Source: a virus. Taken from it: a stretch of 31,306 nucleotides of DNA. Where the stretch lies: positions 1 to 31,306 of IMG/VR virus record IMGVR_UViG_3300032215_000714, one strand, 5' to 3'. The position numbers were made by a program, and so were the translations under genes. Every line of letters begins with the position of its first letter. The first letter of the stretch is position 1. Positions 383 through 29,850 of this stretch are shown here, one piece after another. Below the pieces are notes generated by a model. It made no database searches. It was not told the origin of the DNA and was given only the letters and a program-made list of their open reading frames with translations.

Positions 383-904
383 TTGGCTTATTACCGACGT
401 AACCCCGACGTTCTCGGTCTCGACCTCACCCGAGGCGTGGCCGCTGCAAGCGGTGTCTACCTCGCCAAAAACGTAGGAGCATTGCTAACCTCGTTTTTGC
501 CTGGGGTCGCCGCGATGGTCGACAACATCCGGCCCGGCCTTAGTACCGGCGCAATGGAAACGATAGGTGCCGCGGCAATTGCCGGCTTTGTCGCGCCGAT
601 GTTGCCGATTTCGCCCCAGCACCGGGGTGACCTTGTTCTGGGATCGACGGCAATCGCGACATCCGACGTGATTGCAAGTCTCATCGGACAGGTGAACCTG
701 CTCCAGGGCATGCCCAACTTCTCCGGCCGCGTTGGCGGAGTGATGGGTATGGGTAACGCGAAGATGAATGCGAAGTCCGCACCCGCGGCCTTGCCTGCGC
801 CCACCGGCGGGTTTGCCAACAGTGCGACCCAGGGCTCGGGTCAGGTGGCACAAGCGCAAATGAGTACGTCCCAGCTACTGGGCGTGGGAACGATGGGATT
901 CTAA
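383..904 (+). CDS. Hydrophobic RNP-box protein next to the capsid gene
   Basis: 173 residues, function unknown. TTG start at 383 is chosen because GGGAGG (371-376) sits 6 bases upstream; the ATG at 378 is in another frame. The protein opens with MAYYRRNP, so the RRNP box is at residues 5-8, followed by two hydrophobic, Ala/Gly-rich segments (about 18-46 and 60-76), then a Gly/Ala/Gln-rich, probably flexible tail. It lies 1 base upstream of the capsid gene and shares its RNP box with many small proteins further down the operon. In internal-membrane phages the genes flanking the capsid gene often encode membrane or vertex proteins, so a virion membrane protein is the best guess (inference). Confidence 0.8.
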   Translation: MAYYRRNPDVLGLDLTRGVAAASGVYLAKNVGALLTSFLPGVAAMVDNIRPGLSTGAMETIGAAAIAGFVAPMLPISPQHRGDLVLGSTAIATSDVIASLIGQVNLLQGMPNFSGRVGGVMGMGNAKMNAKSAPAALPAPTGGFANSATQGSGQVAQAQMSTSQLLGVGTMGF

Positions 905-905
905 G

Positions 906-2015
906 ATGGCTAAGCGGCAGACTTTGCGTCATCCGGTCAGCATTGCATTTTCAAGCAGTGGCAGTTTCTCGCTCGACCTGAGCAACAAGCCACAGACGAT
1001 TACGGGGATGTGGATCGTTGTACGACCCACGTCGATCACGTCGACGACCACCGGCTCGTACAACGACCCTTGGGACAGAATCATTCAGTCGATGACATTG
1101 TCTGGAGCCGGACACACGTACTTCCAGGCTCTCGACATGCGTAATTTCTATTTCCATCAGAGGCATTTTCTCCAGTGGTTGTCGCCAAAGCGGCCCGCTC
1201 GTCCGGCTGATAGCCTGACCACCGCCGCCGGGCCACAGTTTGGCTATTACGTCCATTTTGGAGTGTCGCCGCTTGTGTTCAACGGCGCGACCGGCCGATT
1301 GGACGAAAATCGGTGGGATTTGTCCGCCGGTATTGCCCCTTCAACGGGGGGCAATCTGACCCTTACGGGCAACTTCAACAGCGGGACGAATGTGATGGGA
1401 TCGGGCGTCACGCTGAACGCCGCTAGCATTGACGTGTACCTTGATTGTGTGTTGCCAGAAGCGGGCGATCCTCTCGAAGCGTATTTGCCTCGGGCGCTAC
1501 CCGCGTGGTTGCAGACTCAGCCGTCACTGTCGTCAACATCCGGCGCGTTCGGTACGTTCGAGAACGTCCCGGTTGGCTCCTTGTTGCACTCAGTCACTGC
1601 AATGACGACGGCGGGGAGCAATGCACCGCGCAGCTCCACCGTCCTTAACAGTCTGCGACTCCAGGACGTTTTGGGGTCAAACACCGTTTTTGAATACGGT
1701 CAGGGTTCAGCCGCCGCTGACTCAATCAGCGCCGAGATAATCACCCAGCAGGGCGACGGTTTTCCCCTTGTCGACGACCCGGCTGCTATCGGGACGTTCA
1801 CCGTTGGTACTCAGAGTGACTCCGGCATGATCCACCTTGACGTAGCGCAGTACGCGGTTCGCGGCGATCCGATTTTCGGCCTCGACCTCCGACGCGTTGG
1901 AACCGGCGCGGTGCAAATCCAGTACGGCGTCGCAACCACCACCAACGCCGCCCTTCAGTTTTTTTACCGAAGGTACGATTACAACATGGCGCACCCATCC
2001 AACGCCGGGCGGTAA
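906..2015 (+). CDS. Probable double-jelly-roll major capsid protein
   Basis: 369 residues, almost all predicted beta-strand with no hydrophobic helix. After a first strand pair, residues about 48-80 have the pattern seen early in the first jelly roll of DJR capsid proteins: a Ser/Thr-rich strand, then NDPWDRIIQSMTLSG, a 'polar-DP-hydrophobic-I-x-x-hydrophobic' block followed by an aromatic helix (ALDMRNFYFHQRHFLQW). A second block with similar strand spacing fills the C-terminal half, ending in FFYRRYDYN. Length fits the family (roughly 250-400). It is the second of two genes ahead of a terminator-like hairpin, as expected for a highly expressed capsid gene. A packaging ATPase of the A32 type is in the same operon, while HK97-type head genes are absent. 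The assignment rests on pattern, not on a search; a spike or other beta-protein is the alternative. Confidence 0.68.
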   Translation: MAKRQTLRHPVSIAFSSSGSFSLDLSNKPQTITGMWIVVRPTSITSTTTGSYNDPWDRIIQSMTLSGAGHTYFQALDMRNFYFHQRHFLQWLSPKRPARPADSLTTAAGPQFGYYVHFGVSPLVFNGATGRLDENRWDLSAGIAPSTGGNLTLTGNFNSGTNVMGSGVTLNAASIDVYLDCVLPEAGDPLEAYLPRALPAWLQTQPSLSSTSGAFGTFENVPVGSLLHSVTAMTTAGSNAPRSSTVLNSLRLQDVLGSNTVFEYGQGSAAADSISAEIITQQGDGFPLVDDPAAIGTFTVGTQSDSGMIHLDVAQYAVRGDPIFGLDLRRVGTGAVQIQYGVATTTNAALQFFYRRYDYNMAHPSNAGR

Positions 2016-2029
2016 GGTGTGGCACGGCC

Positions 2030-2070
2030 GGGGGGTGCGGATGAATAGTCCGCGCCCCCCGTTTGTGTTA
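2030..2070 (+). terminator. Strong hairpin with T-rich tail after the capsid gene
   Basis: A 12-bp stem pairs 2030-2041 (GGGGGGTGCGGA) with 2049-2060 (TCCGCGCCCCCC), with one G-T wobble and a 7-base loop, followed by GTTTGTGTTA. It starts 14 bases after the capsid stop codon. This looks like a Rho-independent terminator or attenuator. As the downstream genes have no obvious promoter of their own in the 78-base gap, partial read-through would give high capsid and lower spike expression (inference). Confidence 0.75.
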
Positions 2071-2093
2071 TCAATGCGAGGGAGGGCCGACCA

Positions 2094-3637: not shown

Positions 3638-5748
3638 TGCCTGCACCGAACATCACTGATTACGTGCCGAGCTGGTACCACGTCCTTGATTACGGAGCGT
3701 CCGGCAAAGGCAATTACGACGACCGACCCGGCATTCAGAAGGCGATGCAGCAGGCTTCTGACGGGGGCGGCGGGTTGGTGGTTGTCCCGGCGGGAACGTA
3801 CCGCCTCGATGCTTCGCTTTCCTGGACGGGCCTAACCAACGTCTGCATCTGGTTAAGTGTGGGTAGCAGCCTCACCGGGAGCGGGTCGCTTCCATCCGCA
3901 ACTGGCCTGAATAATTCGATTTTTGACTTTCGCAGTGGCACGCCGTCGGGAGGCACGGTATCGGCCGCTTTCCCGTTGGCAACAGATGCACTACCCAACC
4001 CGACAATCAGCCTGCCGCCGGCCAACGCAATCACGCAGAGCAATACGGTGACCGGCACGGCGATCATTGCGTCCGGGTTGCTTGGGGCACGAGCTGGCGG
4101 CCGGTACGTAGGGACAACAGAAAACGGGGCGCCTACGGTAGGGGATTTCCTGACGGGCGATTACGTGATTGATCAGACTGGTTCGCTCTGGGTCTGTACG
4201 TTGGGAGGTACTCAAGGAACATGGGTGCAACTCGCAGCCAATCAATACCCAGGACCCGCGGTTACCGGCGTCTCGGCCAGCACGCAACTGCTATCGACCG
4301 GCGGTACGACTCCTGACATATCACTCGACTCGACAGCCGCAATTGTCCAAACGAACCAAATCGGCGGGACCAATATCACCATCACCGGCCTGCCTGGGGC
4401 GACGGCTGGAGCGCGGCTGATCGGCGCGACTGTCAACGGTGCGCCCGTCTCGGGCACATGGCTGAAGGGTGACCTCAACATAGATCAAAGTGGGTCGCTG
4501 TGGATATGTACGCTGGCCGGCACCGCCCCCTCCGCAACATGGATACAACTCGCGGCGAACACCATTGTCGGATCTCCGGTAACCGGCGTATCGGCTAGTG
4601 CGCCGTTGACCTCGACGGGTGGCACAACTCCGGTTATTGCGTTGCCAACCAACGGCGTGATAGCGCAGACCGTACCCATCACTGCGACGGCGTTGTCAGC
4701 TTCAGGGCTAACCGGTAGCACCGCCGGTGGAAGGTTTGTAGGCGCGACGACCAACGGCGCCCCTACATCAGGTACGTACCTTGCCGGGGATTATGTTGTT
4801 GCCAAGACAGGGTCGTTCTGGATTTGCACTGTTGCGGGGACTCCGGGCACATGGGTGCAGATGCAAGGCAACACAATCGTCGGAAGCCCAGTCACGGGAG
4901 TGGCGGGAGTCACTCCAATTGTTTCTTCCGGCGGTGTGACCCCATCCATATCGTGGGATTCAACCTACGCGATTAATCAAAGCAACTCGATTACGGGTAC
5001 GTGGCTAAAACCCTCGGGCGTCGGCTCCGCAACAGCAGCAACAAGGTTTGTTGGTGGGACGGCATCAGTAGCTCCTACATCAGGCACGTTTCAGGTCGGG
5101 GATTACGTCGTCACGCAGAACGCAAAGATTTTTGTTTGCATCACGGCCGGGACTCCAGGCACATGGTCGCAGATCGTAGGCGCTGCGGCGCCCACTACGG
5201 CTACGTGGGTACGCATCGCGACCGTGACGGTCGCCACGAACGGAACGAATTCGTTGGCCTTTGGCGGCGACGGAACTCTCTATAACTACCTCGACTTGCG
5301 AGTCACAGGGTTGCTACAAACGGTGGCAACCCAACCAAACCCACAATACATGAGAGTCACGATGTTGTTCGGAGGCGCCTATCACCTAAACGACAATTGG
5401 GTGCATTGCCACTACCAAAGCGGCACAACTTTGTATGAGAACAACACGAATAGCTCATCAGGGTCACAGTTTCCCAACGTGGCATTTTTTGGCCCAGCTT
5501 CGCAGACGCGATACATGGCATTTGAGTTGATCATTCCCAACACCAATGCCCGAACTGGCCCATACATGGCGATTTGCAACTTTGGCTCGCACTCGGGCAA
5601 TAACACCGGCCCGCAGTACACCGGGAGGTCGGTGGCATATGGCGCAACCGCAACATCTCCCTATTTGTCAACGGTGACGCTTGGCATGACCGACGCCAAC
5701 GGATACGCTGCCGGATCGTGGGCAACGCTATGGGGACAGAGAGCATGA
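3637..5748 (+). CDS. Large modular spike with pectate-lyase-like base
   Basis: 703 residues from ATG 3637 (TAATG overlap); the longer open frame back to 3412 is an artefact. Residues about 12-70 match the N-terminal part of the pectate-lyase/'Pectate_lyase_3' beta-helix family (VLDYGASGKGNYDDRPGI, then GGGGLVVVPAGTYRLD). Residues about 130-520 hold four tandem copies of a roughly 105-residue unit with GxPVTGVSA, STGGTTP, NGAPTSGTxLxGDYV and SGSLWICTxAGTPGTW landmarks. The last 160 residues form a beta-sandwich head like that of the protein encoded just upstream. No catalytic set of a polysaccharide lyase is evident, so the base may serve as anchor. Its stop overlaps the next start as ATGA. 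Confidence 0.75.
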   Translation: MPAPNITDYVPSWYHVLDYGASGKGNYDDRPGIQKAMQQASDGGGGLVVVPAGTYRLDASLSWTGLTNVCIWLSVGSSLTGSGSLPSATGLNNSIFDFRSGTPSGGTVSAAFPLATDALPNPTISLPPANAITQSNTVTGTAIIASGLLGARAGGRYVGTTENGAPTVGDFLTGDYVIDQTGSLWVCTLGGTQGTWVQLAANQYPGPAVTGVSASTQLLSTGGTTPDISLDSTAAIVQTNQIGGTNITITGLPGATAGARLIGATVNGAPVSGTWLKGDLNIDQSGSLWICTLAGTAPSATWIQLAANTIVGSPVTGVSASAPLTSTGGTTPVIALPTNGVIAQTVPITATALSASGLTGSTAGGRFVGATTNGAPTSGTYLAGDYVVAKTGSFWICTVAGTPGTWVQMQGNTIVGSPVTGVAGVTPIVSSGGVTPSISWDSTYAINQSNSITGTWLKPSGVGSATAATRFVGGTASVAPTSGTFQVGDYVVTQNAKIFVCITAGTPGTWSQIVGAAAPTTATWVRIATVTVATNGTNSLAFGGDGTLYNYLDLRVTGLLQTVATQPNPQYMRVTMLFGGAYHLNDNWVHCHYQSGTTLYENNTNSSSGSQFPNVAFFGPASQTRYMAFELIIPNTNARTGPYMAICNFGSHSGNNTGPQYTGRSVAYGATATSPYLSTVTLGMTDANGYAAGSWATLWGQRA

Positions 5749-5990
5749 CAGACATAACAGAAGACCGACCGATTCTGTACGTTGCCGAGGCGGATGCCAA
5801 CACGGGCGAAACTATCACACGCCCGTACACCGCAGAGGAAGCCGCGCAATATTGGAGAGAGCGCGAGCTTGAGGCTGCGAATCCTCCAATCAGTGCCACA
5901 CATGACCCGTTGGAGGAGTTACGCGCACAAATTAATGAGCTGCAAGCGCTCGTAGCTTCGTTGACAAAAGGGGTGCAGACGGCACCATGA
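5745..5990 (+). CDS. Small acidic coiled-coil protein after the spike
   Basis: 81 residues from ATG 5745, in an ATGA overlap with the spike stop; the ATG at 5718 lies inside the spike gene. Residues 1-45 form a short polar domain (DRPILYVAEADANTGE, then PYTAEEAAQYWRERE). Residues 55-76 have heptad-like Leu spacing (DPLEELRAQINELQALVASL), a probable short coiled coil. Similar small proteins with a C-terminal coiled coil follow tail-fibre genes in many phages and help assembly or trimer formation. That role is by analogy only. The stop overlaps the transglycosylase start (ATGA). Confidence 0.65.
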   Translation: MTDITEDRPILYVAEADANTGETITRPYTAEEAAQYWRERELEAANPPISATHDPLEELRAQINELQALVASLTKGVQTAP

Positions 5991-6565
5991 CCGCCGACCG
6001 ACGCAGGTGGGAACCGATAGCGGTACAAGCTGCAAACAGTGCGGGCGTCGATCCTGCGCTATTTGTCGCAATGATCGAAGTAGAAAGCGGCTTCGACCCA
6101 GACGCGCAGAGTGGCGCGGGAGCCATCGGGATAGCGCAAATTGTCCCCAGATGGCACCCTGGAGTCGATGTTCGCGACCCATACGCGAGCCTGCAATACG
6201 CGGCCCGGCTGCTGTCGTCCCATTTGCAAACGTTTGGAAGCGAGCGCCTCGCGTTGGCCGCTTACAACGCAGGTGCCGGGGCGGTTCATTCCGTTGGTGA
6301 CCAGGTTCCTGACAACGGCGAAACCCCCAGGTATGTGGAAAAGATCCTGAGTCTCCGCGGTAATACGTCAGCACTGGCGCAACCGGCCACCGAACCCGCG
6401 ACGCCGGCAAGAGGTGAAGCCGGGCCTCGAATTGTGATGCCTAACCCGGCCGTTGCAGTCGTAGCGGCCTTGAGCAACCCGGACCCGCAGAACAGGCGGA
6501 ATATCGCGCTCATAGCGGCCGCGTTGGTGGGCCTGCTTGTCGTTACGGTTGTGATCGACCAATGA
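5987..6565 (+). CDS. Membrane-anchored lytic transglycosylase (SLT family)
   Basis: 192 residues. The N-terminal 115 residues are an SLT-type lytic transglycosylase domain, which cleaves the glycan strands of peptidoglycan. Visible motifs are the catalytic Glu in IEVESGFDP (E33-S34), GAIGIAQIVP, and LALAAYNAG. A linker rich in Pro/Ala leads to a C-terminal helix (about 170-189, IALIAAALVGLLVVTVVI). There is no N-terminal signal peptide. A transglycosylase with a tail anchor fits a virion enzyme held in an internal membrane and used to open the wall during entry, like PRD1 P7 in principle. It sits in the spike cluster with ATGA overlaps on both sides, supporting a role in entry and not in lysis. 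Confidence 0.88.
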   Translation: MTADRRRWEPIAVQAANSAGVDPALFVAMIEVESGFDPDAQSGAGAIGIAQIVPRWHPGVDVRDPYASLQYAARLLSSHLQTFGSERLALAAYNAGAGAVHSVGDQVPDNGETPRYVEKILSLRGNTSALAQPATEPATPARGEAGPRIVMPNPAVAVVAALSNPDPQNRRNIALIAAALVGLLVVTVVIDQ

Positions 6566-6741
6566 ACCGTCATCCAGTCCTGACAGCAGCAGCCGTGTTT
6601 GTGGCGTTGGTTATCGCCTCGCGTTTGTTCTCCAAACCTGCCGGGAGCAGTGCGCTTAGTGCCGCGTTGGGCAACCCGTCCGGCAGTGTGCCGTACGCAA
6701 TTGGTGCGCGTGCGATGGGGCCGGTCGGAGGAATGTTCTGA
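6562..6741 (+). CDS. Small membrane protein, 59 residues
   Basis: ATG 6562 overlaps the transglycosylase stop (ATGA), and its TGA overlaps the next ATG (TGATG), so it is tightly packed between two genes. Residues 5-22 form a hydrophobic helix (PVLTAAAVFVALVIASRLF), followed by a Gly/Ser/Ala-rich tail that ends in MGPVGGMF, recalling the ending of the protein at 383 (VGTMGF). No known family recognised. Position beside the transglycosylase and spikes suggests a minor virion membrane peptide. Confidence 0.72.
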   Translation: MNRHPVLTAAAVFVALVIASRLFSKPAGSSALSAALGNPSGSVPYAIGARAMGPVGGMF

Positions 6742-7445
6742 TGGCAAACGGAATAGCCGACCTTATTCCGGGGTGGCGAATCCTGACCGATTACGGTGCT
6801 GACGCAACCGGCAATAGCGACGCTGCACCCGCGTTCTCGGCTGCAATTGCCAGCGTGCCGAACGGGGGCACAATTGTAATCCCGACCGGGACATTCCGGC
6901 TGGATACCGCGCCCGATTGGACGACAGCTACGAATGTCCTCGTGTGGGTGGCCGGGGGGGCGATCCTCGCCGGCCAGTTTCAGGGACTAGCCTTGACCGG
7001 TGCTGGTAATCGCGTTGTGAGGTGGAACGGCACCGCCACACCGTTGTCAACCGACAATGTGGGTACGGTCCTGGGAAGCGTGTTTCCCAACCCAGTGAGC
7101 AGCTACGCAGACGGTAGTCGGGTTGTGTTCCCCTTGTTTAGCGGTCAAGCCAGAATAAGCGCGAGGTACAACGCCGCGGACGTATCGGTAATCGTCAACG
7201 GCCTGACCTTGGAACCATACGTAGCACAAGTCGCGTTGCCCTGGATGAGTGTTGTCGATCAAGCCGGACAATTTCGGACCGTGGCCCCAATGGGGGAAAC
7301 GCAACCGCAGGCGTCGGTGCTGCTGTACCGCCCGCCGGCCAGCGGGTCACGCATCGCGGTCCGACTGCCCAATAGCTCGACGATGACTACCGCCTCAACG
7401 CAAAAATATCCCTACACTTCACAAACGATCACACTCGGAGATTAA
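6741..7445 (+). CDS. Short spike with pectate-lyase-like base
   Basis: 234 residues, ATG 6741 in a TGATG overlap. The first 80 residues are clearly homologous to the base of the larger spike at 3637: both have a W-x-x-L-x-DYGA start, a GN-x-D-x-x-P stretch, GGxxVxPxGTxRLD, and a TNVxxWxxxG block. After that the two diverge: here a beta-rich domain of about 140 residues with no tandem repeats ends the protein. This is the pattern expected when different distal domains share one capsid-docking base. Two bases separate it from the giant spike gene that follows, and they may act together. Confidence 0.75.
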   Translation: MANGIADLIPGWRILTDYGADATGNSDAAPAFSAAIASVPNGGTIVIPTGTFRLDTAPDWTTATNVLVWVAGGAILAGQFQGLALTGAGNRVVRWNGTATPLSTDNVGTVLGSVFPNPVSSYADGSRVVFPLFSGQARISARYNAADVSVIVNGLTLEPYVAQVALPWMSVVDQAGQFRTVAPMGETQPQASVLLYRPPASGSRIAVRLPNSSTMTTASTQKYPYTSQTITLGD

Positions 7446-7446
7446 A

Positions 7447-10400: not shown

Positions 10401-10593
10401 GATGGTCGGCTCCACGATCCTGTTGGGTACACCAGCATCCACTACTGGAAGCGCCGGAATCATCCAAGCTGTGCAATCGTCAACCGTTGCAACGGTGTCG
10501 GTTTCCCAAACCCTGGGAAGTCAAAGCAACTGGTACATCTCCAATCTCGCCTCCGTGATTGGGCGCATATCTTGGACCGAGGCACAAGCCTAA
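7447..10593 (+). CDS. Giant beta-rich spike protein, 1048 residues
   Basis: GTG start at 7447, two bases after the previous stop. The largest gene of the genome. Residues 1-85 form a beta-sandwich like the end of small capping domains. From about 150 onward several units repeat a 'VHGLVVGDHVFITG ... CNGPWVVSS' pattern (again at PHGL-x-PG ... YNGTYAV), a layout I know from phage and phage-like adhesins. The middle contains RQTRRYFRYQSGKG and a long region with aromatic- and Asn-rich strands, the end more Ser/Thr-rich strands. No enzyme motif, signal peptide or membrane segment seen. Probably the main receptor-binding spike; function inferred from size, composition and place. Confidence 0.72.
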   Translation: MAKHVILEAYTFTPATNTVVVTGKAIRPEQLLLITNVTRGTVLFNFSDASLGATVTRASVAGNETTTIVLTGYSTSAMLATDKLAILVEETYQEVTPAESFFDPVGKERTSQPQALIDTDFEYGTQPTKWESLSLLANRPSAYYDATQPINGSLSGITLNTMSFTTANSQTTVTLVFSATVASLLSVGQPFFVIGSLDPACDGWQLVDTVSTTTVTYKLVGSPTVASPVLDAAKTYVFAGSWYSGAALPLASSGAVAALTTSTMQVYTAQVHGLVVGDHVFITGTSGATGTTCNGPWVVSSIESSSQIRITTNGAGTVLTAGTATLTGLGVTLYPRNPGYVTHRAFDGGVQFTNQIPAHGYQTIRQTRRYFRYQSGKGVQWSTGSILKPALNVDTITAGGTTVGSTITIACKYPHGLAPGSASQIVISGVNEAGYNGTYAVATTPSITSLTVLATQTLASTTATANAVTGSFQVSPGNWYGSKNRLGMFDSQNGFYFEHDGQALYAVKRSSTSQLSGTGAVDVSANPSQINGTTTQFAAQLVPGDYVVIRGTSYLVTQILSNTAMIVSPNYRGATISNVASNLVISKTVDTKYAQSAWNIDRCDGTGASGLNIDLAKMQMFYADYSWYGAGAIRFGFRNNRGEIIYAHRIANNNVNTEAYMRSGNLPARYETSTQAPYTTLVSTLASSAVGGATFTLADGSQFPSSGTVLVSSSAGGSGGANASVEYISYSAKTSTAPWVFTINARNTIGVSTSAQTWTYSATAPISVALHSPSQASTISHWGSSVIMDGRYDDDKSLVFNTGLTSAANWITTATRRPLLSLRIAPSVDNGFTGSTLGAREVVNRMQLVLRQMDGYTSGSAFKIDLILNGLVSAGTWVNVGGSSLAQYVLHTTGNETISGGENVFTFFTNLGGVTQQELQLVRDLGNCILGGGSTAVGVRYPDGPDIITMCATPVTYTYLNSTGNGTFTQTTNVVTFSNTILTQAMVGSTILLGTPASTTGSAGIIQAVQSSTVATVSVSQTLGSQSNWYISNLASVIGRISWTEAQA

Positions 10594-10706: not shown

Positions 10707-10717
10707 GGTAATTGATA

Positions 10718-11629: not shown

Positions 11630-11630
11630 C

Positions 11631-11870: not shown

Positions 11871-11872
11871 CG

Positions 11873-12106: not shown

Positions 12107-12110
12107 ACGG

Positions 12111-12332: not shown

Positions 12333-12335
12333 CTT

Positions 12336-12809
12336 GTGAATTATCGACCGTACAAAACCCGCCGTAACCCGATTACTAACTCGATTCCAATTAAACCGAT
12401 CTTGTACGTCGGTGGGGCATGGGTGCTATTCAAAATGGCCCAGGGTGGCGCGTTTGGGTTGCCGTTGCAATCGCTTACGCAAGGACTCGGCGCGGCCGGA
12501 GGATTGGTATCGAAAGCAACCACCGACACGCTCGGCGCCGTTTATAACCCGCGTCCGGTAATTACTACGCCGGGAGGCATCCCGGCGGGACCGGCATCAG
12601 GCGGTGCAACGGCAACAGGCGCCGGGCGCTTGTCACCGCCCCCGGCGGGTACGTCGGTGGACCTGGCCGCTTACGATCCAGCCGCGGGTGGGTTTGCGTG
12701 GGACGGTGACAAGGTGTACACGATTGCAGAGCATATGGTGATTGCAAACGCCAAAACGCCCGTAGAAGCGGCGGCGGCGGCCAAACTCTGGTACGCCAAC
12801 AACGGATAA
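12336..12809 (+). CDS. RNP-box membrane protein, 157 residues
   Basis: GTG 12336, three bases after the previous stop. RRNP box at residues 9-12 inside a basic N-terminus (YRPYKTRRNP), then a membrane helix (19-34, IKPILYVGGAWVLFKM), a Gly/Ala/Pro/Thr-rich linker and a C-terminal helical domain (about 105-157) with FAWDGDKVYTIAEHM and an Ala-rich end. The C-terminal part resembles that of the Gly-repeat protein at 13120 in layout: both have a short W/Y-containing domain with 'D-x-VY-x-I' (DKVYTIAEHM here, DNLVYNIDGAV there). Function unknown. Confidence 0.75.
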   Translation: MNYRPYKTRRNPITNSIPIKPILYVGGAWVLFKMAQGGAFGLPLQSLTQGLGAAGGLVSKATTDTLGAVYNPRPVITTPGGIPAGPASGGATATGAGRLSPPPAGTSVDLAAYDPAAGGFAWDGDKVYTIAEHMVIANAKTPVEAAAAAKLWYANNG

Positions 12810-12814
12810 CAACA

Positions 12815-13120
12815 ATGCGACGCGACTACGATCCTGATGTGGTGTGGTTAACGTCCATCCTGCGACGCAATCCGACAAACGAACACGCCGAGGCCGCGGT
12901 AAATGGCTTGATTGCCAGGCACGGCCGGAATCACGTGCATCGGTTGCTAGCGATTGAGTACGAGAGGGCGGACGGCACACGTTGGCGACACGAGGCAGGT
13001 GATCGAGGGGAAGGCGTCGCCCCGGAAAAGCGCCCCGAGTGGGTTGTGGTGGAGGATGGAGCGGCGCCAACGTTTCACGGCCCGATGCGATGGGAAGAAG
13101 GCAGGGGATTAGTCGGCTGA
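12815..13120 (+). CDS. Soluble RNP-box protein, 101 residues
   Basis: ATG 12815. RRNP box at residues 17-20 (ILRRNPTNEHAE). No membrane segment. The first 50 residues are helical with basic and His residues (GLIARHGRNHVHRLLAIEYERADG), the rest acidic and basic patches with Trp. It overlaps the next ATG in TGATG. One of the few box proteins without a membrane helix, so the box cannot be just a membrane-flanking charge cluster. Confidence 0.7.
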   Translation: MRRDYDPDVVWLTSILRRNPTNEHAEAAVNGLIARHGRNHVHRLLAIEYERADGTRWRHEAGDRGEGVAPEKRPEWVVVEDGAAPTFHGPMRWEEGRGLVG

Positions 13121-13692
13121 TGGCACGCGGTGGAGCTTCGACGTTAATTTTGCTGGCCGCCCTGGGAGGCGGTGGGTTGTGGGCGTACACCAAATACGGC
13201 GCGTCCTTGGGTCTGACAGGCCCAGCCGACCCTACCAAACCGCCCGGTTCAGCGGGTGGCCCGGCCGGTCCTCCTCGCCCGCCCGGTGGTTCGCCCCGTG
13301 CGTCGGGCGGTGCTGGCGGTGCTGGCGGTGCTGGCGGTGCGTCGGGTGGGTCTGGCGGTGCTGGCGGTGGGTCTGGCGGTGCTGGCGGTGCGTCGGGTGG
13401 GTCTGGCGGTACGTCGGGTGGGTCGTACGGTTCTCCGTCTGACCCGGACTACGACCCAGCTCTCGACCCGACCAGAAACCGCCTCCCGACCGGCGCGGAC
13501 CTAACATCCGCGTGGGTTGACCTCGGAGTCGGTGGCGTCGCGCCGGGACTTGCATGGAGCAGCGCCGATAACCTGGTTTACAACATCGACGGCGCGGTAA
13601 TGATAGGTGGGCCGTTTTCCACGGTTTGGGAAGCTCAATCATTTGGCCGGTCGTGGCTGGGCTTGGGCGATTGGTCGCCGGGAGTTGAGTGA
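13120..13692 (+). CDS. Membrane-anchored Gly-rich repeat protein
   Basis: 190 residues from ATG 13120 (TGATG overlap); the upstream start at 13039 lies in the previous gene. Residues 6-24 are a membrane helix (STLILLAALGGGGLWAY). Residues about 45-105 are Pro/Gly and then nearly pure GGA/GGS repeat, giving a flexible or glycine-rich stalk. The last 75 residues form a small folded domain (LTSAWVDLGVGGVAPG, then NLVYNIDGAVMIGG) that may be related to the end of the protein at 12336. No RNP box. A membrane-to-surface tether is plausible but not shown. Confidence 0.75.
   Translation: MARGGASTLILLAALGGGGLWAYTKYGASLGLTGPADPTKPPGSAGGPAGPPRPPGGSPRASGGAGGAGGAGGASGGSGGAGGGSGGAGGASGGSGGTSGGSYGSPSDPDYDPALDPTRNRLPTGADLTSAWVDLGVGGVAPGLAWSSADNLVYNIDGAVMIGGPFSTVWEAQSFGRSWLGLGDWSPGVE
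13299..13428 (+). repeat. In-frame tandem repeat coding a Gly/Ala/Ser stalk
   Basis: Short units such as GGTGCTGGCGGT and GGTGGGTCTGGCGGT alternate and are themselves arranged in a longer imperfect repeat (GCGTCGGGTGGGTCTGGCGGT appears twice). Lengths are multiples of three, so the frame is kept. Such a tract is prone to slippage and copy-number change, and to assembly error. Confidence 0.85.
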
Positions 13693-14009
13693 TGAACAAT
13701 CAGACATGGAAACAGTTTTCCACAAACGTCCTGCGCTCATTGCCAAAAAATGCCAGTTTTGCCGACCGAGGGCGCGCGCTGCGAGCGGCGTCGAAGATGT
13801 GGCACATGGATCACGCTAGCCGACACTCGCGCGTAAAGGTACGACGCAATCCAATCGGTTACGGTAATTGGCGCGAGCCATCCGCCTCACCGGGCGGTAT
13901 CAGTCAGTCGACTTTGCTGTACGCCTTGGGCGCAGTGGCAGTGTATTTCTTAGTGGTTCGTGGCACCGCGCATACGTGGATGCCGAGCGCGTTGCAAGGA
14001 CAGAAGTAG
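13692..14009 (+). CDS. RNP-box membrane protein, 105 residues
   Basis: ATG 13692 in a TGATG overlap. The N-terminal 45 residues are basic and helical (WKQFSTNVLRSLPKN, RGRALRAASKMWHMDH). The RRNP box is at 51-54 within HSRVKVRRNPIGYG, followed by a membrane helix at 73-90 (STLLYALGAVAVYFLVVR) and a short tail. Here the box is in the middle of the protein but again precedes the helix on its basic side. No family recognised. Confidence 0.75.
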   Translation: MNNQTWKQFSTNVLRSLPKNASFADRGRALRAASKMWHMDHASRHSRVKVRRNPIGYGNWREPSASPGGISQSTLLYALGAVAVYFLVVRGTAHTWMPSALQGQK

Positions 14010-14012
14010 GCT

Positions 14013-14309
14013 ATGGCCCGGCGCACCCGCTATCGACGCAATCCAGGGCAATCTTCCAGCAAGATGCTGTGGGGCGCTCTCGCGGCCGTTGCCGCTGTGA
14101 GCTATCTGCAAAAACACAACCGCAACCAACGACTCGCCAAGGCACAACCGGCGTACACGACCCCTACCGTCACGCCGGGACCGCAGGTACCCCCGACGCC
14201 ACCCGTTGAGATGGTTGCGCGGTGGACACAAGCACAAGCGCCCGGTTATGCCGGTGTGCCCTACGGGTCACCCGTGTGGAACGGTCAGAACTGGGAACAG
14301 CCTGAATGA
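14013..14309 (+). CDS. RNP-box membrane protein, 98 residues
   Basis: ATG 14013. RRNP box at residues 8-11 in a very basic start (MARRTRYRRNP), membrane helix at 18-32 (MLWGALAAVAAVSYL), a basic post-helix segment (QKHNRNQRLAK), then a Pro/Thr-rich tail with Trp and Tyr (PYGSPVWNGQNW). Its stop overlaps the packaging ATPase start as ATGA. Presumably a minor membrane protein of the particle; the link to the ATPase could mean a vertex component (inference). Confidence 0.72.
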   Translation: MARRTRYRRNPGQSSSKMLWGALAAVAAVSYLQKHNRNQRLAKAQPAYTTPTVTPGPQVPPTPPVEMVARWTQAQAPGYAGVPYGSPVWNGQNWEQPE

Positions 14310-15298: not shown

Positions 15299-15305
15299 CA
15301 ACGCA

Positions 15306-15788
15306 ATGATCCGACGCGAAAATAACCTGACGGCTTGGACCGTCCTTGCAGTGACCGGGACCGCCCAGGCGTTTTCGGGTCTCGGCGCATCCTTGCCTAT
15401 GATTAGGGCCGAAGCCCAGGACCCGGCTGGATGCGAGCGGATGCGGGCCGGGTACCGGCCGGCGGCCGCGTTGGCATTTGGCGCGGCTGGCGCCCTGTCA
15501 TACCTGTCCGGTTCGTGGGTACCGCTTCTCGCCAGTGTCGCGACTGGATACGCGTTCATGACTGTTTCGGAGCGTGCGATGCCGAGCCACATGCAACGCG
15601 AGCCGGTGATTACGTTATTGGGTGGCCGAAGCCTGACATCGGACATTGCTGACCTTGGGTTAACCCGGCCCTATCAAGCGGCACCGACTCCGACGCTCGA
15701 AGCCGCGCCACGGTACGCGTCTCCCAAACCCGTCGGCGGTGGTACGTCAATCCAGTTTTCCGGTAGCGGCCAGATGCAGGTGTTTTGA
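15306..15788 (+). CDS. Multi-pass membrane protein after the ATPase
   Basis: 160 residues from ATG 15306, with GAAGG about 10 bases upstream. Three hydrophobic segments: about 10-30 (AWTVLAVTGTAQAFSGLGA), 50-68 (RPAAALAFGAAGALSYL) and 70-86 (GSWVPLLASVATGYAFM). The C-terminal 60 residues are soluble and Pro/Gly-rich. In internal-membrane phages, small membrane proteins next to the ATPase gene help form the packaging vertex; that would fit but is only inference. Its stop overlaps the next ATG (TGATG). Confidence 0.7.
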   Translation: MIRRENNLTAWTVLAVTGTAQAFSGLGASLPMIRAEAQDPAGCERMRAGYRPAAALAFGAAGALSYLSGSWVPLLASVATGYAFMTVSERAMPSHMQREPVITLLGGRSLTSDIADLGLTRPYQAAPTPTLEAAPRYASPKPVGGGTSIQFSGSGQMQVF

Positions 15789-16585
15789 TGGATAACAAAC
15801 TAGTCGCACTAGCGGCTCTCGGAGGAGCCTACTGGTGGATGACACGCAAACGACGCAACCCGCGCCCAATGCGACGTAATCCGGTGGACAAGGACGAGGT
15901 ATCGTACCTGCGCCAAAGCCTAGCCAGCCACATTAAATTGATGGAACGGGCAAGGAAAGAAAATAATGTAACTCAACTCCATTTTCTTGAGTCTTGGAAA
16001 CCATACTGGGAGGCTCAACTAGCACAAGCGTTGCAACGTAATCCGGTCGTTCGCGCCAAAAACCTGGACAAGGCGGAAGAGAAGGTTCGCAAGCTGGCCG
16101 ACGCTGCGCGTGGCTCGATGGCATCCCCGCAATCGAAAGCGGCGTACCGTCGGGCGCTCGACGAGCTGATGCAAACAAGGATCGACGCCGGCACACAAGG
16201 GACGCTGTTTGATATCGCGCCGCGACAAACGACCCAGCGCGGTTTGCCGGGACTGTTTGACAACCCGATGACCGCAGACCCAGAGCGCCAGTACCGTGAC
16301 GCGGCGCGGTACAGCAGTCCGAAGGAATTACTGACCGGAAGCCTTGACGAGGAGTCACGGTTAAAGCTGTATGCATCCGCACCGCCCGAAGTATCGGAAA
16401 AACTGATGCAGGTGCATGCAATCAGCAAGAGACGGTACCAATTGCAGGCCGAGTTTGAGCGCATACGAGGTGATCCACGACGCCAGGCGGCCGTCAAACG
16501 AGACATACAGGCGCTCAATAAAGAGGCTAAGAAGTACCCGCGCCTCGAAGACCTCTACCAGCAATGGGACGTATTGACACGGTGA
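15788..16585 (+). CDS. GGAYWW-anchor RNP-box protein with helical domain
   Basis: 265 residues from ATG 15788 (TGATG overlap). Residues 5-18 are a membrane helix (LVALAALGGAYWWM), followed by TRKRRNPRPMRRNP, so there are two RRNP boxes (22-25 and 29-32); a third RNP occurs at 84-86 (ALQRNPVVR). The rest is charged helix with likely coiled coil (40-135 and 175-265). At 137-141 the sequence QGTLF fits the pentapeptide consensus for binding a bacterial beta clamp, and QRGLPGLF follows at 150-157. The clamp-like protein is encoded two genes downstream. The anchor is almost the same as those at 19972 and 20244. Function unknown. Confidence 0.78.
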   Translation: MDNKLVALAALGGAYWWMTRKRRNPRPMRRNPVDKDEVSYLRQSLASHIKLMERARKENNVTQLHFLESWKPYWEAQLAQALQRNPVVRAKNLDKAEEKVRKLADAARGSMASPQSKAAYRRALDELMQTRIDAGTQGTLFDIAPRQTTQRGLPGLFDNPMTADPERQYRDAARYSSPKELLTGSLDEESRLKLYASAPPEVSEKLMQVHAISKRRYQLQAEFERIRGDPRRQAAVKRDIQALNKEAKKYPRLEDLYQQWDVLTR

Positions 16586-17631
16586 ACCCTTTCGGACTGG
16601 CCGTCCTGGGCGGTGCGTTGTGGTGGTTGTCCCGTTTGAACCGTAATCCCTACGGTGACGACGGCGGGTACATCGGTGGTATCGACGGCAAAAGCAGCGC
16701 GGTGATGCGCAGACTTGCAAACATGGCCGGGTACACACGTTCGGTGCAGGCGTCGATCAGACGCGAGGCGAAAGCCAAGGCGGACGCAGCCGCCCGTGAA
16801 ATTGATGAGCGGGAAAACTATCAGCCTGTTGGCCTAGAACCAATTGAATGGAAGCCGAACGACTTCATGATGGTGCCGGCCGGCGGGAACAAGTTTCGGC
16901 GCATACCGCTACGCGGGTCTGAGACTCCCCAGGACGACGGACGTGAACGGTACGGCCTTGGAGACGGCCGGTATCAGGACGCACGCACGCGAGACTATCA
17001 GCGCGATGTGGCGGTGACGCGTACCGAAGCGAACGCATTGCGGGCAAAGGAGCGTGAACTAAAAGCCGCCGCCCGGGGCATCGGCCAGGACTCGCGCCGT
17101 TTGTACCTCGACAATTTGGAATACACCGTGAAGGAACTGGGCGGCAACCGCGATAAAGTGGCAGCGTTCCTACCGCCCGACCGGCGCAAGTGGGTTGAAC
17201 AAACGATAGAGATTACTGGTGAGTACCTGGGCGATGATGCCGACGGGATGCCAGTATTCAGTGACAGCCGCATCAAACGGCAGAAACGCGCGGTAACTTA
17301 CGATCCTCGTACCGGGGTGCCGGTCGGGTTGCACACGGGGGTATGGGGCGCTGCGTTCGATAGATACCTCGACGCTCAACGATCACGGTGGGCGCGCGTC
17401 CTGCAAAACGATCCTAGCCGCAAAGATGAGGCCACATACTATCTGGACGTGATCAAACATCACGAAACCGTGAAACGTTCGGCACGCGCCGGGACAAGTG
17501 AGGAAGAAAAAATCCTTCGCGGAATTGTCAAACGTCGTGCCGACCTTGACGCCAAAGCGGCGAAACTTACATCCGAATTGCAAGCCGCTCGGAGACCGAG
17601 ACGCCAAGCGGCCAAGGAACGACGGAAATGA
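16582..17631 (+). CDS. Anchored RNP-box protein, charged helical, 349 residues
   Basis: GTG 16582 is preferred to ATG 16564: it forms a GTGA overlap with the previous stop and gives an N-terminus (MNPFGLAVLGGALWWLSRLNRNP) that lines up with the other anchors in this family. RNP box at 21-23. The body is rich in Arg/Lys/Glu/Ala helix: about 55-75, 150-200 and 270-349 are likely coiled coil, ending in a very basic tail (RRPRRQAAKERRK) that could bind DNA. A middle part (about 190-260) has a more globular look (DRRKWVEQTIEITGEYLGDD). Not recognised. Its stop overlaps the clamp-like gene (ATGA). Confidence 0.78.
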   Translation: MNPFGLAVLGGALWWLSRLNRNPYGDDGGYIGGIDGKSSAVMRRLANMAGYTRSVQASIRREAKAKADAAAREIDERENYQPVGLEPIEWKPNDFMMVPAGGNKFRRIPLRGSETPQDDGRERYGLGDGRYQDARTRDYQRDVAVTRTEANALRAKERELKAAARGIGQDSRRLYLDNLEYTVKELGGNRDKVAAFLPPDRRKWVEQTIEITGEYLGDDADGMPVFSDSRIKRQKRAVTYDPRTGVPVGLHTGVWGAAFDRYLDAQRSRWARVLQNDPSRKDEATYYLDVIKHHETVKRSARAGTSEEEKILRGIVKRRADLDAKAAKLTSELQAARRPRRQAAKERRK

Positions 17632-19634
17632 TTGCCGCGCCGGCACTCATACTTGCAGCGGCGTGGTACTGGCTATCGCGGCCGGGCCGTAATCCAAAGG
17701 GTGCTGGATTCAGGGACAAGTCTGGCAAGTTTCATCCCATTCGTAACTCCGAATACTACCAGCCGTCGCTACTCGACGAACCAGAAGAACCGCGACCCGC
17801 TGCACCTACCGGCCCCGCTGCACCTGCGCCGGCGAAGCCGCGTATTGTCGAGGGACCATCACCGATTGCCGTGGAACCGCCAAAGAGTGGCCCGGAACCG
17901 TCCGGCTTATATTGGCCGTTTGCAAAGTTTGACAGGGCACGGCAGGAATGGCGTTTGGTGTTCCCCAAGGCCGCACGCTTGCAATCCAGGATAGATTTGC
18001 TGAATGCGGTTGAGCAGGTGGAAAAGTTTCAAGCGCAAGTGGAGGAAGGCCAGGCCGACCTAAATCAAGATCAGTGGCGGGCATATACGCACCTTCGCAA
18101 ACTGTTTAGCAAAATGTCTGAGTTTATCTACGAGCGTGACAAGGCGCTGGAGATTCTGCGAGCAATCGACATTGACACCGAGGGCGACGATAAAGGCATG
18201 GGGCCGCGTGCGCAGCAAGCTATCTATGAGCGCACCCAAGAGATGAGTCGTATTGCGGCGCTGATCGGAGCGCCCGCCGGCACGGTGCCGATACGTAGCG
18301 ACATCACCAACGAAGAGCAAGAACGCGACTCGTGGCAGGTTTGGGGCGACAATCAAGCCACAACCATCCGAACGAAAAAGCGCCAACTTGACGACATGAT
18401 CAAGGAAAGGGTGCAGAGGCAGTTTATCGAGGCATCACGATTGCGTCAGGAACAGCAGAGGGCCGAGCTAGCCGCGATAAAAGCAGCGAACGAAGCACGC
18501 ATGCACGCACAGCGGGCGATGGCGGCCGAGTTGGGCCTCGATGAGCGTTTATCGGAGATTGCGGACGCCCTCCACCCAAGCCTTGACGCTGACGCCAAGA
18601 AACTATCTGCCGCGCTGCTAGCGGCTGATGCGGCTGGTGACGAAACCGCCGCCTACCATCTTATAAACACTGACGCGCTAAAACTGGTGAAACGATCAGT
18701 AGCGGCGTGGAAGAAGGACGGGATCACTGATATGTCCCGCACCGGCCAAGCCGAGCTAGCGAAGGCAGTTGCCAAATTGGAAGTGTCTGCACAAGTCTCC
18801 CTGAGCGGTGCGGATTTTCTGGCCGCTGTAGATCGCGGCAGCCGAAACGGGCTTCAGGGTTTGAACTTCTACGCAACTGCGCGAGTGTTTACCGCCGGCA
18901 ACAAAATCAATGTCGAATCGACTGACGGTATCGCGTTGTCGCGTGGTAGCGCGATTGCCGCGATTATCCATGCGTTGGACGTGATCGTACCGGGCAAGCA
19001 GCTTGCCGTTGTCGCGCGTGCGATGGGTAAGGTTCCAGTCATCGGTTTGTCCGTCGCCAAAATCGGCACAAAGGACTCGCTGATTCTGACCGATTCCAAC
19101 GGACGCCGCGAGGTAATCACGGCGGAGGATATCGTTTTCCCATCCAAAGCACTCGATACCGTGATTAAACAATCGACGGACTGGCGTTCGTCGGTGGATA
19201 GCGACGCCCTTGGTAAAGCGATCAAAAAGTGGGCGCCCATTTTCAAGGATGCAGGACGCGATACCGCCGCGATTGCTTTAACTCCTACGAATGGTGGCGT
19301 GCGCGTGGTACCGCTCAAGAAGGTGCTGGTGCAGTCGGCAGTCTATGGCCGGTTTGGCACTCTGGAAACGCCGGCGCGATTTACTTTAGCGCCCGTGCGC
19401 GACCAGGCGGAGGTGTTTGCAGCCTCTACTACGGGTACCGGAAGCACGATGACTTTCAGCGTTGCTAGAGTGCTTGACGCGATAAAAGGGATTCGCGGGA
19501 AGCTGAAAATATCTGCCGGAAAAAGTAACGAGGCTCCCCTGAAGTTTGAAAGTGTGGACGGCAATTCCGTTACGGTGCTGATGCCGATGTTCGGTACCCC
19601 GGACGACTATTACGAGCCTAAAGGATCAGGGTAA
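17628..19634 (+). CDS. Anchored stalk protein ending in a beta-clamp-like module
   Basis: 668 residues. Order: membrane helix (3-17, AAPALILAAAWYWLS), GRNP box (20-23), Pro-rich linker, long helical region (about 100-370), then two domains (about 385-515 and 520-660) that follow domains II and III of the DNA polymerase III beta subunit (DnaN). Landmarks in the right order: SLSGADFLAAV, VESTDGIALSRG (family: ATDGHRLA), DVIVPGKQL (family: VIVPRK), EDIVFP before a helix, DALGKAIKKWAPI, TFSVARVLDAIKGI, and VTVLMPM close to the C-terminus (family: VVMPM). A domain I is not seen. A clamp holds a polymerase on DNA; with two domains it might form a trimer as PCNA does. Why it is tied to a membrane anchor in a structural operon is unknown. 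Confidence 0.72.
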   Translation: MIAAPALILAAAWYWLSRPGRNPKGAGFRDKSGKFHPIRNSEYYQPSLLDEPEEPRPAAPTGPAAPAPAKPRIVEGPSPIAVEPPKSGPEPSGLYWPFAKFDRARQEWRLVFPKAARLQSRIDLLNAVEQVEKFQAQVEEGQADLNQDQWRAYTHLRKLFSKMSEFIYERDKALEILRAIDIDTEGDDKGMGPRAQQAIYERTQEMSRIAALIGAPAGTVPIRSDITNEEQERDSWQVWGDNQATTIRTKKRQLDDMIKERVQRQFIEASRLRQEQQRAELAAIKAANEARMHAQRAMAAELGLDERLSEIADALHPSLDADAKKLSAALLAADAAGDETAAYHLINTDALKLVKRSVAAWKKDGITDMSRTGQAELAKAVAKLEVSAQVSLSGADFLAAVDRGSRNGLQGLNFYATARVFTAGNKINVESTDGIALSRGSAIAAIIHALDVIVPGKQLAVVARAMGKVPVIGLSVAKIGTKDSLILTDSNGRREVITAEDIVFPSKALDTVIKQSTDWRSSVDSDALGKAIKKWAPIFKDAGRDTAAIALTPTNGGVRVVPLKKVLVQSAVYGRFGTLETPARFTLAPVRDQAEVFAASTTGTGSTMTFSVARVLDAIKGIRGKLKISAGKSNEAPLKFESVDGNSVTVLMPMFGTPDDYYEPKGSG

Positions 19635-19939
19635 TGGGACTACCCAAACGATCACGAGTAACCGGGCGGTTTCTGAAGAGCGCGCGGCCCAGGCGTAATC
19701 CCACGCCCTACGCTGAGATGCCCCCCCTGGAGCGCGAGAAGGACGACCTGCGGCTTTACAGACTTCGGCTGAAGGACGTTGAAGCCGAACGCAAAACCTT
19801 TACAGGTAAAAAAGCGCTAAGTTCCGAGGACAAATACCGGCGCGATCTTCTGGACTACGAGATCAAAGACTTAAAGGCCAAGATTGGACGAAGTGAGCGC
19901 AGAATTAAATCCTGGTTTTCTGGGGATGTGTGCGGCTGA
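19634..19939 (+). CDS. Basic RNP-box coiled-coil protein, 101 residues
   Basis: ATG 19634 in a TAATG overlap. N-terminus MGLPKRSRVTGRFLKSARPRRNP-type: the RRNP box is at 20-23, the same distance from the start as in the anchored proteins, but the membrane helix is replaced by a basic stretch. Residues 30-95 are one long charged helix (PLEREKDDLRLYRLRLKDVE, DLKAKIGRSERRIKSW), a likely coiled coil. Probably cytoplasmic or inside the particle, perhaps bound to DNA or to an anchored partner. Confidence 0.72.
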   Translation: MGLPKRSRVTGRFLKSARPRRNPTPYAEMPPLEREKDDLRLYRLRLKDVEAERKTFTGKKALSSEDKYRRDLLDYEIKDLKAKIGRSERRIKSWFSGDVCG

Positions 19940-19971
19940 TTGAAGATGAAAACCATTTGGAGGACACGACT

Positions 19972-20241
19972 ATGAACAGTCCGATTTTGGCAATTGCCCT
20001 GCTTGGGGGTGCGTACTGGTGGATGTCTCGCAAACGACGCAACCCAGCCGGATCACGCGGACCGACGAAAGCAACGCAGATCAAGCGGATCAAGCGCGAA
20101 CTAGACGGGTGGCGCGACAAGCTGATTAGCCAGGAGAGCTATTCACAGACGCACTACGGACACAAGGACGCAGGGAACTCATTCATCCATAAAACCATCG
20201 CTATGTATGAGCGACAATTAGCAGAACTGGAAGGACGCTAG
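19972..20241 (+). CDS. GGAYWW-anchor RNP-box protein, 89 residues
   Basis: ATG 19972 with GGAGG 8 bases upstream; the ATG at 19930 is inside the previous gene. Residues 4-18 (PILAIALLGGAYWWM) are a membrane helix, then SRKRRNP puts the box at 22-25. The remaining 60 residues are charged helix (TQIKRIKRELDGWRDKL, KTIAMYERQLAELEG). At DNA level the anchor shares 17 identical bases (CGCAAACGACGCAACCC) with the gene at 15788, so the two arose by duplication. Function unknown. Confidence 0.78.
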   Translation: MNSPILAIALLGGAYWWMSRKRRNPAGSRGPTKATQIKRIKRELDGWRDKLISQESYSQTHYGHKDAGNSFIHKTIAMYERQLAELEGR

Positions 20242-20243
20242 CA

Positions 20244-20603
20244 GTGGATAGCAAACTCCTCGCACTCGCAGCGGTGGGTGGCGCGTACTGGTACCTCAAG
20301 GGGCGCAAGCAACGCAATCCTAAGCCAATGAGGCGCCAGTACCCCGTTAGCAAGCGGGCGCCGACCTTGATGCAGGCCCGACTCTCTGAAGGTGCGAACC
20401 GCATCAAGGAAGACCGGGTACTGGCCGAATGGGAGCGGGCCGAACGCAATTACGGGTCATCATCACCACAGGCCCAGCGACTCCGGGACCGGTGGTACCA
20501 GCTACAAAAACTGGACTATGACAAAAACAGCGCCACCATCACCGCACATCAGGCGTATCGTAAGCGTTACGGCAAATACCCCCAGTCGATGCCCTACCCA
20601 TGA
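20244..20603 (+). CDS. GGAYWY-anchor RNP-box protein, 119 residues
   Basis: GTG 20244, two bases after the previous stop. Anchor at 5-19 (LLALAAVGGAYWYLK), then GRKQRNPKPMRRQYP: box at 24-26 followed by a second PMRR motif that matches the PMRRNP of the protein at 15788, with the second box changed to RQYP. The remaining 85 residues are helical and basic. Overlaps the next ATG (ATGA). Third copy of the anchor module with a different body. Confidence 0.77.
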   Translation: MDSKLLALAAVGGAYWYLKGRKQRNPKPMRRQYPVSKRAPTLMQARLSEGANRIKEDRVLAEWERAERNYGSSSPQAQRLRDRWYQLQKLDYDKNSATITAHQAYRKRYGKYPQSMPYP

Positions 20604-20845
20604 GTGATCAGAGTTCGGCGCTCAGCGAACTGGCAGGGTTTCGCACAACCCCCCAACCCGTCCTACTGGCCGGCGGCGCTTTCATCGCTTACATGGCCTA
20701 CGACAGCTATCGCGACTCGAAAAGCACGCGATTCACAAAGCTGGCACGGGCGGACGACCGGCGCGACGCGTACATGCTGGGAGCTGGAGCGATGTACGTC
20801 CTTGCCCTATGGGCGTACCGGGGGCAACAGGCTCGCCAGTCGTGA
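20600..20845 (+). CDS. Two-helix membrane protein, 81 residues
   Basis: ATG 20600 overlapping the previous stop (ATGA). Two membrane helices at about 19-36 (PQPVLLAGGAFIAYMAYD) and 57-75 (AYMLGAGAMYVLALWAYRG) with a charged 20-residue loop between them (YRDSKSTRFTKLARADDRRD). No RNP box. Small virion membrane protein or holin-like protein; context favours the former. Confidence 0.7.
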   Translation: MSDQSSALSELAGFRTTPQPVLLAGGAFIAYMAYDSYRDSKSTRFTKLARADDRRDAYMLGAGAMYVLALWAYRGQQARQS

Positions 20846-21162
20846 TAGCACCGCCCTGGTTACGACGTAATGCGGCGCGAGGATTGTCGTGGCTTGCGTC
20901 CGGGTACGGCGGGTCCGGTTTGCAACCGCAAACGATCAGGGAGGCGCACAGTATGGTGCAGGGCACGGTGACGCGCGAAAAAGCAGCGCGAATGGTTGCA
21001 TGGTTTGCCAGACACCGTATCGACCTTGACGCACCAGCAGCGCGAGCCGGGTCGCCTGGATACCCATCGCCGGGGGTGGTGGCTCATGCCCTCTGGGGAG
21101 GTGGGTCCCGGTCGAAGTCGGCGCAGGCTCAACGGTGGGCGTCGCAAGTATTAAAACGTTAA
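20842..21162 (+). CDS. Small phage-type conserved domain protein, 106 residues
   Basis: GTG 20842, in a GTGA overlap with the previous stop; an open frame back to 20809 has no site. The sequence has a dense, globular signature: PPWLRRNAARGLSW, SGLQPQTIREAHSMVQG, REKAARMVAWFARHRID, then PSPGVVAHALWGGG and QRWASQVLKR. I recall a domain of this type (N-x-x-RGL, ARxM-x-x-G-x-V/L-S/T, K-x-x-RM-x-x-WFxRH, G-x-VAxxLWGG, A-x-xWA) from many phage genomes, where its role is not established. No membrane helix or RNP box (RRNA in place of RRNP). Confidence 0.75.
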   Translation: MIAPPWLRRNAARGLSWLASGYGGSGLQPQTIREAHSMVQGTVTREKAARMVAWFARHRIDLDAPAARAGSPGYPSPGVVAHALWGGGSRSKSAQAQRWASQVLKR

Positions 21163-21174
21163 GGCTGTAAACAG

Positions 21175-21432
21175 ATGCACTACCCCGGATGTACACGAGC
21201 GCACAAACACGGAGCGGCCGGTAATTTTGTGGGTAGCCGACCCCGTCGCAACCCCTCAGATGCCGACATTGAGCGACTGATCGCCCATCACCGTCGTCTA
21301 TCTCGCGACGCCGAAGCAGCAGCCCAGCGACTGGTGGGAAAACCTGGCACGAGGGACCGCGTACACCGGCTCCTTCTCAAGGCGGCGGATCACAGCATCA
21401 AGGTGCAAAAACTAGCCCGGCAACTGGGATAG
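21175..21432 (+). CDS. Soluble RNP-box protein, 85 residues
   Basis: ATG 21175. RRNP box at residues 24-27 (SRPRRNPSDAD), preceded by a Cys/His-containing N-terminus (MHYPGCTRAHKHGAAGNF) with C6, H10 and H12, which might bind a metal ion, though too few ligands are present for a standard zinc finger. The rest is helical (DIERLIAHHRRLSRDAEAAA, RVHRLLLKAADHSIKV). No membrane helix. Unknown function. Confidence 0.72.
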   Translation: MHYPGCTRAHKHGAAGNFVGSRPRRNPSDADIERLIAHHRRLSRDAEAAAQRLVGKPGTRDRVHRLLLKAADHSIKVQKLARQLG

Positions 21433-29849: not shown

Positions 29850-29850
29850 C

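Follow-up and report, generated by a model that had tools for sequence, protein, structure and literature searches.

A three-residue RNP box at the joint between exchangeable front ends and bodies of late proteins in a likely tailless membrane phage

The question raised by the virus record IMGVR_UViG_3300032215_000714 of IMG/VR, whose 31,306 bases (31.3 kb) are referred to here as the window, is why twelve proteins of otherwise different sequence, encoded between positions 383 and 21,432, should share the three residues Arg-Asn-Pro (RNP), hereafter the RNP box. A preliminary description of this DNA had listed the twelve proteins together with the place of the motif in each, and all twelve are confirmed (Table 1). 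What it overlooked is the main feature of the box, namely that it marks an exchange joint between swappable front ends and swappable bodies. To our knowledge no tag of this form is known in this kind of virus, and the phrase 'RRNP motif' was not found in the literature searched.

Genes are termed late here when they lie on the plus strand, which carries the capsid, ATPase and fibre genes, and the class is therefore one of strand and not of expression. Within the first 60 residues RNP occurs in 12 of the 33 late-strand proteins (13 copies) and in none of the 16 early-strand proteins, in agreement with the earlier claim that no early protein carries the motif at its N-terminus. Shuffling of the first 60 residues gives an expectation of 0.39 copies for the late strand, where 0 of 2000 shuffles reach 13, and of 0.13 for the early strand; for RRNP the late strand has 10 copies against 0.03 expected. 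No tripeptide is present in more late proteins than RNP (13), and each of the five alternative orders of R, N and P is limited to 0-2 proteins of the window. RNP is enriched in every relative of the virus as well, whereas the other letter orders are not, being rare in all of them. The observation is confirmed as real and well above chance. The residue preceding the box is mostly Arg, but it is Asn in 16582, Gly in 17628 and Gln in 20244 (proteins are named by the first base of their gene), and the invariant core of the motif is therefore RNP. Two more copies are internal, at residue 336 of the fibre protein 7447 and at residue 69 of the minus-strand helix-turn-helix protein 29958, and the capsid candidate, ATPase, fibre and lysis proteins have no N-terminal box.

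The presumed capsid protein (906-2015), used as a query, returned four related IMG/VR contigs, G001-G004, with 78-83% identity in that protein, and the five genomes together encode 54 box proteins with 60 boxes. More sensitive alignment searches of viral contigs with the capsid candidate, the ATPase and 16582 returned only the same set; no relatives were found in bacterial and archaeal genome contigs, none of the three proteins had a match in phage records, and the capsid candidate had none in plasmids. The 54 proteins sort into few kinds of leader and many bodies. Besides five core proteins that are conserved in place, the genomes contain arrays of genes in which one of three leaders precedes the box: a short hydrophobic membrane helix (e.g. 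MNPLGLAALGGALWWLSRLN-RNP), a His/Cys-rich stretch (MHYPGCTRAHKHGAAGNFVGSRPR-RNP) or a basic stretch (LPKRSRVTGRFLKSARPR-RNP). The relationship among the hydrophobic leaders is clear. In IMG/VR the WW-leader DNA pattern was found only in the relatives and in six unrelated chance matches, the His/Cys leader only in the relatives, and the search for the basic leader gave one chance match; no leader was thus found beyond this phage group.

The exchange is seen most directly where one body carries different leaders or one leader different bodies. The body of 20244 (KPMRRQYPVSKRAPTLMQ...) follows a hydrophobic leader in the window and a His/Cys leader in protein 6694 of G001, and the two copies are 82% identical from the first residue past the box, with the nucleotide change point at +0. 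The His/Cys leader in turn precedes at least four different bodies; between G001 6694 and G004 22368 identity is 95% as far as the box but falls to 34% beyond it. The reverse pattern is seen when G001 7502 is compared with the second half of G004 22804: identity rises from 31% ahead of the box to 93% from it onwards. Relative to the Arg codon, the best-resolved change points map to nucleotides -1, 0, +8, +8, +8 and +10; others are less well defined, falling between -12 and +29 with broad ranges, and in four pairs the sequences were too similar or too dissimilar for a change point to be placed. All pairs were aligned with the box as the fixed point and were selected for their contrast, and they show the positions of joints in these cases and not their frequency. 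Proteins with several boxes show such joints internally as well: homology to other bodies begins at the second box of G004 22804 and, for bodies in G001 and G002, near the third box of 15785, which is probably an older joint to judge from these alignments. Between G001 and G004 identity is about 88-96% in the majority of aligned blocks, but the box arrays belong to the parts that have been replaced. As close strains from different metagenomes (L017/L018, L023/L024) these two offer a natural comparison for the turnover of cargo. In G003 (L022, 7813-12897) three genes share the same hydrophobic leader and, past the box, a second module, DWITT.GKHRP, after which their bodies differ.

The preliminary description had proposed to ask whether RNP is conserved in related genomes while its flanks vary, and several orthologues behave in this manner, among them 16582 and the family of 12336, whose boxes read KTRRNPIT, GVRRNPDF, RMRRNPGG and MYYRNPSM, with unlike flanks on both sides of a constant box. 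Wherever the gene was found, RNP is kept in the orthologues of 12336, 12815, 13689, 14013, 16582 and 17628.

Table 1. The twelve RNP-box proteins of the window; the Arg column gives the residue number of the box Arg.
Gene	Strand	Class	Length (amino acids)	Arg	Box (nucleotides)	Features
383..904	+	core	173	6	398-406	RRNP, before hydrophobic stretch; orthologues in all four relatives, box only in G003
12336..12809	+	core	157	10	12363-12371	Before hydrophobic stretch; kept in all five genomes, flanks wholly different
12815..13120	+	core	101	18	12866-12874	No membrane helix; L16 R17 R18 N19 P20 invariant
13689..14009	+	core	106	53	13845-13853	Mid-protein, before hydrophobic stretch; all relatives keep box, preceded by R, K or E
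14013..14309	+	core	98	9	14037-14045	KRNP in G002 orthologue; none detected in other three relatives
15785..16585	+	array		24, 31, 85	15854-15862, 15875-15883, 16037-16045	Three boxes; hydrophobic leader
16582..17631	+	array	349	21	16642-16650	Hydrophobic leader MNPFGLAVLGGALWWLSRLN-RNP; R21 N22 P23 Y24 invariant, residues 19-20 vary
17628..19634	+	array	668	21	17688-17696	Hydrophobic leader; second shared module GAGFRDKSGKFHPIRNSEYYQPSLLD
19634..19939	+	array		21	19694-19702	Basic leader LPKRSRVTGRFLKSARPR-RNP; similar leader on two other bodies in G002
19972..20241	+	array		23	20038-20046	Hydrophobic leader
20244..20603	+	array		24	20313-20321	Hydrophobic leader; same body with His/Cys leader in G001
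21175..21432	+	array		25	21247-21255	His/Cys leader MHYPGCTRAHKHGAAGNFVGSRPR-RNP; same leader on other bodies in G001, G002, G004; homology stops at +8 nucleotides

With even confidence for and against, it is proposed that the RNP box closes an N-terminal sorting leader on a modular and fast-exchanged set of late proteins, and that it works like the capsid-targeting sequence of phage T4. The leader would send the protein to its place in the forming particle, either the membrane or a soluble inner layer, where a common partner, perhaps the inner face of the capsid or a core protein, would read the box, and the body would be a changeable cargo carried in the virion. We infer this targeting to the particle from the likeness to the internal proteins of T4 (PMC9026906) and to DarB of phage P1 (PMC9024508). 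What the cargo might do is a guess, anti-defence being one candidate; scans of the bodies against Pfam, PHROGs and PADLOC gave no convincing anti-defence or other domain except a weak sliding-clamp match in 17628.

Since the sharpest change points fall within about 10 bases of the box, the motif could also be a site of DNA recombination or a remnant of short homology, its codons persisting from crossovers that were perhaps mediated by the tyrosine recombinase 22086, the gene of which adjoins the array. The Asn codon of the box is AAT in 67% of cases against a background of 32%, but the same excess is found in other Asn-Pro pairs (32 AAT to 21 AAC, against 282 to 494 elsewhere) and is a general effect of the Asn-Pro context. 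Moreover the 60 boxes are written in 20 different nine-base codings, with no strong DNA conservation outside CGNAAYCC, and the core proteins that have stayed in place retain the box despite their diverged flanks. A site at the level of DNA is rejected on account of these varied codons and the general nature of the bias, and the recombination-site explanation is regarded as very unlikely. As the codons vary and the bias belongs to Asn-Pro pairs at large, the RNP box is selected as protein.

Two further explanations operate at the level of protein. Asn-Pro bonds can break spontaneously, and the box may be a processing site at which leaders or inserted domains are cut, by a protease of host or phage or by such breakage, to free the body. 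This is a serious rival, albeit an unlikely one: the homology joints fall at the box, some proteins have two or three boxes between domains, with the inner boxes of 15785 and G004 22804 at old joints, and the toxin-carrying C-terminal region of CdiA is delineated, exchanged and cut at its VENN motif (PMC9424206). The residues that flank the box nevertheless vary freely on both sides, the residues ahead of it in 12815 are conserved as part of the same small protein, and the internal RNP of the fibre is conserved with no sign of a joint. The maturation protease site suggested in the preliminary description is possible, but Pfam and PHROGs recognise only two M23 peptidases, which are of the peptidoglycan type, although divergent proteases may escape such searches. 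The other explanation grants the box no special function. The array genes would have been duplicated from a single membrane-anchored ancestor, RNP being a charge cluster at the membrane interface joined to a helix-starting turn (Asn as cap, Pro at the first helix position) that spread by descent and gene exchange. It would agree with the clear relatedness of the hydrophobic leaders and with a low-confidence prediction for 12815, in which the box lies in a loop between two helices and is followed by a helix. RNP, however, also ends two unrelated leaders that are not membrane helices, stands before a helix or without one in the core proteins, is invariant where the flanks differ, and is enriched when the other orders of its three letters are not; this explanation is considered distinctly improbable.

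Several points weigh against a sorting leader closed by the box. Three of the four relatives of 383 have lost the motif, those in G001 and G004 reading GHNP instead and that in G002 lacking it, and in the G004 relative of 15785 the hydrophobic leader is present but the box is not. A binding signal of three residues would be short on its own, and the box proteins are putative components of the particle. The C-terminal part of 17628 weakly resembles a sliding clamp (phrog_947 at 594-654, E 3.4e-6; Pfam DNA_pol3_beta_2 at 405-468, E 0.2, below cut-off); the protein is possibly a membrane-tied DNA sliding clamp, and such a body could serve replication in the cell. With the box masked, a positive-inside test, which is crude and whose helix finder missed many leaders, placed 13 boxes inside, 9 outside and 1 ambiguously. 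A common topology with the box always on the cytoplasmic face was also considered, but these counts give no consistent side. The retention of the box among orthologues, on which the preliminary description had staked its functional tag, thus holds for the six families named above and fails in three of the four relatives of 383 and in one of 15785. A tag at the level of protein is backed by the constancy of RNP amid diverging flanks and by its varied codons, and among the three roles that had been suggested for it inclusion in the particle or its membrane fits best, as a conjecture.

One gene spans the ends of the window (30602 to 261), and the genome is therefore probably circular or permuted. 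The virus is likely a tailless membrane phage. Sequence searches gave no match for the capsid candidate, the AlphaFold model of which is poor (predicted local distance difference test score, pLDDT, 37); the Foldseek matches listed for this model are viral jelly rolls including PRD1 P3, none at E <= 0.001. The ATPase candidate, 14306, considered as a packaging ATPase of the FtsK/HerA type, has a Walker A motif (GLRKTGKT) and a Walker B-like stretch (SLIVDD) that were recognised by eye, and only sub-threshold AAA matches. As in PRD1, PM2 and the groups described in PMC5894146, this candidate P-loop ATPase is accompanied by numerous small proteins that each have one hydrophobic stretch. At 31 kb the window nevertheless exceeds the genome sizes of about 7-18 kb reported for tailless double-jelly-roll phages (PMC5894146), its jelly-roll capsid fold is putative, and its box proteins set it apart from PRD1 and PM2, among whose annotated proteins no N-terminal RNP was found. 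A wider reading, tentative and on balance doubtful, is that a probably tailless, membrane-bearing lineage may possess a virion-loading code: leaders that end in RNP and can be exchanged would carry a varying set of small cargo proteins, possibly anti-defence factors, to distinct layers of the particle, and both the cargo and its address would be changed by recombination at the box.

Other genes of the window deserve mention. Three cell-wall enzymes are encoded at 5987-6565, 21440-22093 and 29112-29888, one SLT transglycosylase and two M23-type peptidases, the third being below the Pfam cut-off. The fibre-like protein (7447-10593) aligns over 90% of its length, at about 40% identity, with virion structural proteins from marine Synechococcus myoviruses, which by sequence points to a fibre shared between unrelated phage types and not to kinship of whole phages. 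Two late proteins (3640-5748 and 6741-7445) have a common N-terminal module that recurs with other remainders in G001, G003 and G004, a modular exchange apart from the RNP box. Within the array, 20809-21162 encodes a protein without RNP that matches phrog_2859 (E 1.9e-10) and is conserved in all relatives.

Should the box prove to be a loading tag, it would offer a transferable means of directing proteins into a phage particle, in a lineage for which none is known to have been described, and the variable genes would be candidates for roles in host takeover or anti-defence. Whatever its function, it provides a clear example from nature of the exchange of front ends and bodies at a joint of three residues.

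Among the closest known systems are the internal proteins IPI, IPII and IPIII and the Alt protein of T4, in which a shared short N-terminal peptide carries poorly conserved bodies into the head; this capsid-targeting signal has 10-19 residues and is removed (PMC9026906). Common to both is a short N-terminal signal on proteins of otherwise different sequence, here the 54 box proteins with leaders that recur on several bodies, and the T4 bodies too are poorly conserved among related phages and are replaced by others with a similar signal. Compared by description and not by alignment, the leaders of the present group differ in that they mostly have 18-28 residues and are of three unrelated kinds with only RNP in common. 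T4 is moreover a tailed phage with a scaffold core and the gp21 protease, whereas the window phage group has no recognised prohead protease and has many more such genes. In P1, N-terminal residues of DarB direct cargo into the capsid (PMC9024508), and both systems place the element at the N-terminus, the capsid signal being shown in P1 and inferred here; the Dar proteins, unlike the RNP arrays, form no modular array and have no N-terminal consensus recognisable by BLAST. In CdiA the VENN peptide is both the joint for the exchange of toxin bodies and the point of cleavage (PMC9424206). It resembles the RNP box as a short conserved peptide at a body-exchange joint, the change points here falling at the box. 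CdiA, however, is a single large protein that is secreted and comes with toxins and immunity genes, whereas the present system consists of many small phage proteins whose front ends are exchanged too, and Pfam, PHROGs and PADLOC scans found no CdiA scaffold, toxin or immunity domains in the box proteins. Overall, the best reading of these comparisons is that the RNP proteins form a modular, hypervariable late set in which the front end and its box would work like the capsid-targeting signal of T4 or the VENN joint of CdiA.

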